Shown: positions 57,400 through 58,284 of the stretch, in pieces | How the letters are laid out: each line of letters begins with the position of its first letter | How positions within the stretch are numbered: the stretch's first letter is position 1 | NCBI GenBank assembly: GCA_902594255.1 | Contig: CACJLN010000005.1 | Coordinates: forward strand, 20,639-84,638 | DNA length: 64,000 nucleotides | From: an uncultured Pelagibacteraceae bacterium | GTDB taxonomy: Bacteria > Pseudomonadota > Alphaproteobacteria > Pelagibacterales > Pelagibacteraceae | Direction: 5' to 3' | Program-made: the position numbers and the translations under genes | Notes under the pieces: model-generated | The model's database searches: none | Told to the model about the DNA's origin: nothing | Seen by the model: only the letters and a program-made list of their open reading frames with translations

Positions 57400-57705
57400 A
57401 TGAGAAATCTGAAACCTATAATTTTAATTTTAGTTTTGTCTTTTACTATCTCAGCCTGTCAGACTATTAAAAATAAAACTGATGAGATCGTTGAAAAAGA
57501 GAATCAAAAATTAACTAAATACATTGGTAAAACATCCAGTTTACTAAAAATGGAATTAGGTGCTCCTAGTGAAGATTTTAAAAACGAAAAAGGGAATTTA
57601 ATTTTAGTATATAATACTAAAAAGTACGGGATACCATGTGAGAGAAGATTTGAAATAAATTCTAATTCTATTGTAATTGGATTTATTTCTAATGGATGTT
57701 TTTAA
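57400..57705 (+). CDS. small predicted lipoprotein
   Basis: Signal peptide with lipobox FTISAC; conserved-looking region KLTKYIGKTSSLLKMELGAPSEDF. Confidence 0.7.
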   Translation: MRNLKPIILILVLSFTISACQTIKNKTDEIVEKENQKLTKYIGKTSSLLKMELGAPSEDFKNEKGNLILVYNTKKYGIPCERRFEINSNSIVIGFISNGCF

Positions 57706-57711
57706 AAATTA

Positions 57712-57736
57712 CTTGCGGAGAAGTTATCTCCGCAAG
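57712..57736. terminator. hairpin between small lipoprotein gene and hsp20 (likely hsp20 terminator, possibly bidirectional)
   Basis: CTTGCGGAGA-AGTTA-TCTCCGCAAG perfect 10-bp stem; minus strand followed by TAATTTTTAAAAA. Confidence 0.75.
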
Positions 57737-57746
57737 CAAGGTCTAT

Positions 57747-58193
57747 TTATTTGATATCAATAAGTTTTTTCTTCTTATGTTCTGGAACAATTCTTTCACA
57801 AGATATTGTCAAAAGACCATCTTTAAGTTCAGCACCATTAACTTTTACATCATCAGCAATAGTAAATGATCGCGCGAATTGTCTTTGAGAAATACCTTTA
57901 TGAATGATCTCACCATCTGTGTTATTGTCCTCAGATTTATTAACCTGTTTCGTTCTTACTGTTAATAAATTATCCTCAAACTCAACCTCAACATCTTTTT
58001 TGTTAAAACCAGCTAAAGCTAATTCTATAGCATAATTATCCTTTCCAGTTTTTCTGATGTTATATGGCGGGTAGTTTGACTGCATAGTCAAAGCACCATT
58101 CCCAAGCATATTTTCAAATTGATCAAACATATCATCAAAACCAATTGAAAATGGTCTTAGTGAGTTGAATATAGATAAATCCTTACTTGTCAT
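57747..58193 (-). CDS. Hsp20/IbpA small heat shock protein
   Basis: alpha-crystallin domain YNIRKTGKDNYAIELALAGFNKKDVEVEFEDNLLTV; RQFARSFTIADDVKV. Confidence 0.95.
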   Translation of the reverse strand: MTSKDLSIFNSLRPFSIGFDDMFDQFENMLGNGALTMQSNYPPYNIRKTGKDNYAIELALAGFNKKDVEVEFEDNLLTVRTKQVNKSEDNNTDGEIIHKGISQRQFARSFTIADDVKVNGAELKDGLLTISCERIVPEHKKKKLIDIK

Positions 58194-58250
58194 AATATCC
58201 TCCTTTGTTAAGCAAGTTTATTTATTGTTAGCCCCATTAGGCGACCAACA
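58194..58250 (-). promoter_or_regulatory. ROSE-like RNA thermometer in hsp20 5'UTR
   Basis: Hairpin I GUUGGUCGCCUAAUGGGGCUAAC (58249-58227); hairpin II CUUGCU-UAACAA-AGGAGG (58216-58199) masks the SD; UUGCU opposite AGGAG with a G-G mismatch is the ROSE signature. Confidence 0.75.
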
Positions 58251-58255
58251 TTATG

Positions 58256-58284
58256 TATATGGGAGTAATTTATTTTTTTTCAAG
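58256..58284 (-). promoter_or_regulatory. sigma32 (RpoH)-type promoter for hsp20
   Basis: CTTGAAA (58284-58278), 14-nt spacer, CCCATATA (58263-58256). Confidence 0.82.

Follow-up and report, generated by a model that had tools for sequence, protein, structure and literature searches.

A short two-hairpin ROSE-type leader and an RpoH-type promoter as the probable heat control of hsp20 in Pelagibacteraceae (SAR11)

ROSE elements have been described as tied to small heat-shock genes. The closest tested analogue of the leader reported here precedes ibpA of Pseudomonas: this ROSE-like leader of 61-62 nt harbors two hairpins and a U(U/C)GCU motif and is transcribed from a sigma32 promoter (PMC3669281). 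Reporter, ribosome-binding and probing experiments showed that it is a thermometer, the second hairpin melting and the first one staying closed (PMC3669281). Two systems from E. coli can also be compared: the ROSE_2 element (RF01832) of ibpA and the thermometer of rpoH, where the heat control of a heat-shock gene is exerted by mRNA structure; the latter bears on the rpoH elements of relatives described below. SAR11 bacteria are among the most abundant marine organisms and have a strongly reduced genome. Structured RNAs of Candidatus Pelagibacter ubique were surveyed in 2009; the main text of that study has no mention of a thermometer, a ROSE element, hsp or heat shock.

The window, i.e. the whole stretch of 64,000 nucleotides that was analysed, carries an hsp20 gene downstream of ptrB. 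The features of this locus are as follows:
58290-58288, minus strand: stop codon of ptrB (sequence)
58278..58284, minus strand: -35 box CTTGAAA of sigma32 (RpoH) type, kept in relatives and also found 5' of groES
58256..58263, minus strand: -10 box CCCATATA, separated from the -35 box by 14 bases
58227..58249, minus strand: hairpin I, GUUGGUC-(bulged G)-CC-UAAU-GG-GGCUAAC, with the loop UAAU (fold, covariation, RNAalifold)
58242, minus strand: bulged G of hairpin I
58199..58216, minus strand: hairpin II, the putative sensing hairpin (fold)
58216-58211, minus strand: anti-Shine-Dalgarno (anti-SD) CUUGCU, opposite the Shine-Dalgarno (SD), G facing G
58204-58199, minus strand: SD AGGAGG, five bases from the AUG (sequence)
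58193-58191, minus strand: start codon AUG of hsp20 (sequence)
58182..58188, minus strand: AAGUAAG in codons 2-4 of hsp20, candidate second partner of the anti-SD (synonymous invariance, in silico competition)
57747..58193, minus strand: hsp20, encoding an IbpA-kind small heat-shock protein of 148 aa (PF00011 over its cut-off)
57712..57736, minus strand: terminator-like hairpin CTTGCGGAG-ATAACTT-CTCCGCAAG, 3' of hsp20 (read from the sequence)

The terminator-like hairpin sits between hsp20 and a convergent small lipoprotein-like ORF (57400-57705, plus strand). The protein encoded by hsp20 is the single Hsp20 match of the source assembly (1.02 Mb, 36 contigs). It is 100% identical to Hsp20 of uncultured Pelagibacteraceae (SAR11) genomes and shares 41% identity with E. 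coli IbpA. Its best NCBIfam match is IbpA (E 6e-29), yet under the curated cut-off of that model.

Three bases separate the ptrB stop from the CTTGAAA box, which is followed by the 14-base spacer, CCCATATA, the 56-nt leader and hsp20. The preliminary description of this DNA had put the promoter 4 bp past the stop; both boxes and the spacer stand, the gap is one of 3 bases, and its estimate of about 56 nt for the leader agrees with what is seen. The transcription start is predicted near 58249, at the 5' end of hairpin I. The sigma32-type promoter that had been proposed is conserved: the strict pattern CTTGAA-N16-CYAYAT occurs in 59 of 90 leaders from the same family, with an identical spacer in 58 of the 59, and in 0 of 1800 shuffles. 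CTTGAAA-N10-18-CYATAT matches four sites genome-wide: hsp20, groES, one site inside an open frame and one without a gene start behind it, the last two being apparently due to chance. Judged by sequence only, hsp20 would belong to a sigma32 (RpoH) regulon, with a CTTGAA-N13-18-CNCCATAT-type promoter (consensus taken from PMC3669281) and an rpoH gene in the genome (361 bits). In the same genome, groES (L209, about 987-1040) carries CTTGAAA-N15-CTATAT 26 bases 5' of its start codon and is devoid of a ROSE-like leader. SAR11 rpoH (L092, about 1420-1460) shows an AT-rich sequence before the ATG, no obvious Shine-Dalgarno and almost no leader features.

The minimum free energy (MFE) of the 63-nt leader is -15.0 kcal/mol, against -8.1 +/- 2.3 for dinucleotide shuffles (z -3.0; 1 of 200 shuffles as good). 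The MFE fold contains the two hairpins already drawn in the preliminary description; the loop of hairpin II needs correction to AACA, owing to an additional U58210-A58205 pair. CUUGCU and AGGAGG are both present, the latter 5 nt before the AUG, and the fold pairs them in hairpin II, as had been claimed.

The gene is present in 96 of the 147 genomes from the same family. The leader set comprised 91 hsp20 loci, including that of the window, and the start codon could be placed in 90 of them. The anti-SD and SD motifs are found in 89 of these 90 leaders, the exception being a diverged second hsp20 (L078). Another leader of the family (L067, genome G020) keeps anti-SD and SD and has its hairpin I swapped for one without the G-CC/GG tip. 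Among the 73 distinct leaders, 8 of the 10 pairs of hairpin I have changed on both sides and 96% of the cells are paired. RNAalifold recovers the same hairpin I when the structure is not supplied. Over these leaders the whole structure has a covariation score of 0.316; shuffles give 0.178 +/- 0.007, and slid partners do not exceed 0.119. At the tip of hairpin I (bulged G, CC/GG), the sequence itself is kept more strictly than base pairing would require.

Hairpin II behaves differently, with 95% of cells paired in the same 73 leaders, almost no covariation, and anti-SD columns that are invariant or nearly so. The covariation expected across related hsp20 leaders is therefore carried by hairpin I, and hairpin II, which hardly varies, is supported by the invariance of its non-coding anti-SD. 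Such a near-absence of covariation would follow from an SD that is held constant by the ribosome. The UUGCU/AGGAG pairing, named beforehand as one point on which the thermometer proposal could fall, is thus kept in relatives.

Comparison with the curated families places the leader close to ROSE elements. It lies in the 5' UTR directly before a small heat-shock gene. Its two hairpins, of which the 5' one is stable, fall within the range of the class (two to four stem-loops, the one at the 5' end being stable). In the 73 leaders, a U(U/C)GCU anti-SD faces the SD (CUUGCU over AGGAGG) with G opposite G, the G-G geometry being predicted. Assignment to the FourU thermometers was rejected: these have four consecutive U facing the SD, a place taken here by CUUGCU. 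In the window and in ten further SAR11 loci, all Rfam families stay under their gathering cut-offs. A permissive search of this stretch gave three matches, two of them on the correct strand and in register with both hairpins, at scores far below gathering: ROSE_3 (RF02523; 22.1 bits of 43, E 0.013) and ROSE (RF00435; 19.7 bits of 45, E 0.68). The third, ST7-OT4_3, was discarded as below threshold, like STnc250 and mir-3012. ROSE_2 gave no match in the window, and the E. coli ibpA leader used as positive control was recovered as ROSE_2 at 100 bits. Hence, of the ROSE and ROSE_2 searches proposed earlier, only the former finds the leader, in register and sub-threshold. Since the curated gathering scores are missed, the leader is not filed in ROSE, ROSE_2 or ROSE_3, though it is built like one.

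With ROSE and ROSE_3 it shares the tip of hairpin I with the bulged G (ccGCCuuauGGggC in the ROSE consensus, GUCGCCUAAUGGGGC in the window) and UUGCU...GGAGG; the SAR11 leader lacks about 30 nt that separate the two hairpins in the ROSE model. With E. coli ibpA it shares the small heat-shock gene and the anti-SD principle. With the Pseudomonas ibpA leader it shares two hairpins, a stable and conserved hairpin I, U(U/C)GCU against the SD, a sigma32 promoter and a small heat-shock gene. The two differ in lineage, in stem sequences and in UTR length (56 nt in SAR11 hsp20), and a synonymous constraint on codons 2-4 was looked for, and seen, in SAR11. By anatomy, the SAR11 leader would work like that of Pseudomonas.

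We therefore consider it very likely that hsp20 is under double heat control, by an RpoH-type promoter and by a short ROSE-type thermometer with two hairpins, of the sort found at Pseudomonas ibpA. An RpoH-type sigma factor would transcribe hsp20 from the promoter located between ptrB and hsp20, giving an mRNA whose 5' end would be the thermometer. The stable hairpin I probably holds the leader folded and protects the transcript. In hairpin II, UUGCU would cover the SD through weak U-G, U-A and G-G contacts and block the ribosome at normal sea temperature. Warming would open this hairpin and thereby induce translation. In silico, hairpin I remains about 97% paired up to 50 °C. With standard energies and the extended coding region excluded, the median unpaired fraction of the SD rises from 0.26 at 10 °C to 0.35 at 45 °C, which is weak melting. 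The computed SD opening with temperature varies with the length of coding sequence included.

Homologous hsp20 leaders also occur in other alphaproteobacterial families. A covariance model (R1) made of SAR11 hsp20 leaders only was run over 385 whole alphaproteobacterial genomes, and its nine best matches outside SAR11 are all located at hsp20 start codons. Five of its weaker matches coincide exactly with start codons of two other genes, rpoH (L114, L117, L121) and dnaK (L118, L120). A second model (R2), made of the R1 set plus the newly found elements, gave 34 matches at E <= 0.0012, a rough value as for all E-values of these home-made models; all lie at the starts of hsp20 (22), rpoH (6) or dnaK (6). 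Twelve of the 34 are outside SAR11 and were not used to train R2 (five hsp20, three rpoH and four dnaK). When weaker matches and family searches are included, rpoH elements are found in 7 genomes from three families and dnaK elements in 8 genomes from five families:
L114, L121, L211, L117, L213, L226, L233: two-hairpin ROSE-type leaders directly 5' of rpoH
L118, L120, L215, L218, L220, L222, L224, L236: two-hairpin ROSE-type leaders directly 5' of dnaK

The genes behind these elements were identified as sigma-32 and DnaK by NCBIfam. Covariation over 31 alphaproteobacterial elements reaches 0.553, compared with 0.180 +/- 0.017 for shuffles. For the 15 rpoH and dnaK elements alone it is 0.655 (shuffles 0.241 +/- 0.032, slid partners no higher than 0.186), in an alignment that was fitted to the model and leans towards the structure. 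Most of the rpoH and dnaK elements that were folded singly again give two hairpins, hairpin I having a bulged G. Hairpin II is not formed as drawn in L117, L118 and L233, and L213, with a poor hairpin I, is the weakest of the rpoH set. Two genomes (G389, G381) harbor both a dnaK and an hsp20 element.

Matches at unrelated genes were taken as chance (L111, L113, L123-L126 and several R2 matches above E 0.0012). The same applies to the only further matches in the genome of the window, both weak (E 0.33 and 1.06); one of them has no clear gene and the other lies at an unrelated gene. R2 also matches the leader of E. coli ibpB (L245, 1899-1954, E 0.0075) and not that of ibpA. In the genome of the window, rpoH carries no such element and dnaK was not recognised in the 82%-complete assembly. 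In the class scan, matches of R2 in five SAR11 genomes are at hsp20 only; because strict filters were applied whenever more than 40 genomes were scanned, little weight can be given to a missing match. Searches of open-access papers yielded no report of ROSE at rpoH or dnaK, and a Caulobacter DnaK paper (PMC5760092) describes no dnaK leader element.

A constraint absent from the preliminary description affects the first codons of hsp20. Among 142 distinct Pelagibacteraceae hsp20 genes starting with MT, codons 2-4 (ACA, AGT, AAG; 58182-58190 in the window) show no synonymous change (142/142, 139/139 and 140/140, respectively). They are the sole synonymously invariant columns among 106 conserved ones, for which the median share of the top codon is 0.73. 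These codons are invariant although AGT and AAG represent only 9% of the serine and 20% of the lysine codons in the rest of hsp20, and four neighbouring genes have no comparable block. The AAGUAAG that they carry could pair over 7 bp with the anti-SD CUUGCUU (-10 to -12 kcal/mol), which suggests that the constraint comes from a second, competing partner of the anti-SD in the coding region. Under this refinement of the thermometer reading, the anti-SD would have two partners and work as a strand-exchange switch, not as a simple melting zipper, warming shifting it from the SD to the coding strand. Computation over 141 leaders is consistent with this: from 10 to 45 °C, median anti-SD:SD pairing falls from 0.44 to 0.25 and anti-SD:coding-strand pairing rises from 0.11 to 0.52. 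SD opening increases from 0.32 to 0.62 with the native codons; when common codons replace them, the SD remains closed (0.20 to 0.25).

However, in the window sequence itself, pairing with the coding region is favoured over the SD hairpin at every temperature (0.81-0.88) and no switch appears. An alternative version would have the coding pairing act as an additional clamp on the start region. Moreover, complementarity between anti-SD and coding start is no general feature of other families (p 0.08 and 0.996) and is not significant outside the main SAR11 group. Within the window, 3 of 62 ORF starts score equally or better, the own one probably included. As both strands are invariant, there is no covariation with which the anti-SD/AAGUAAG pairing could be tested. 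We thus hold the two-partner switch as a tentative refinement, somewhat short of an even chance. Taken together with a wider proposal, it becomes doubtful: that short ROSE-type leaders form a small alphaproteobacterial regulon including rpoH and dnaK, which would place the heat-shock sigma factor of some lineages under a ROSE thermometer, and that the SAR11 hsp20 version is a two-partner switch with its second strand in codons 2-4.

The main function of the leader could also be to bind Hsp20, which would thereby repress its own synthesis like E. coli IbpA, heat titrating Hsp20 onto aggregates. To bind its mRNA and repress itself, IbpA requires Arg93 and Tyr34 (PMC10474464), which align with R104 and Y41 of the window Hsp20; with these residues, self-repression through the leader would be possible, and it may coexist with a thermometer. 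The conservation of the hairpin I tip beyond pairing needs also agrees with this reading. However, self-repression was demonstrated only in gammaproteobacteria in PMC10474464, and the two residues may be conserved for other causes. Furthermore, rpoH and dnaK are preceded by the same tip, and neither product is expected to repress its own synthesis. We consider self-repression as the main role unlikely.

Another possibility is that the leader keeps one fixed fold and serves only to stabilise the mRNA and hold translation low, heat acting purely on transcription via RpoH. For Pseudomonas, a stabilising effect of a 5'-terminal hairpin on the transcript has been suggested (PMC3669281), and the weak computed melting of the leader fits a fixed structure. 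However, a fixed structure would not account for the UUGCU anti-SD being invariant, for its position opposite the SD in every family or for the likeness to tested ROSE leaders; we regard it as very improbable. Lastly, a chance hairpin in AT-rich sequence, to which the scores under the Rfam cut-off and the z of only -3 for the window sequence alone might point, is ruled out by shuffles, by covariation (which refutes it for hairpin I), by family-wide conservation and by whole-genome searches that were specific for heat-shock genes.

Besides the thermometer that we favour for SAR11 hsp20, the invariant codons allow a sharp test of the idea that coding sequence can serve a thermometer as competing strand. 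The same covarying element 5' of rpoH and dnaK is the wider and more important result: that whole heat-shock regulons are under one short RNA becomes testable. For SAR11, temperature sensing by an RNA without any protein would be a cheap heat response, whose set-point is of interest in a warming ocean.
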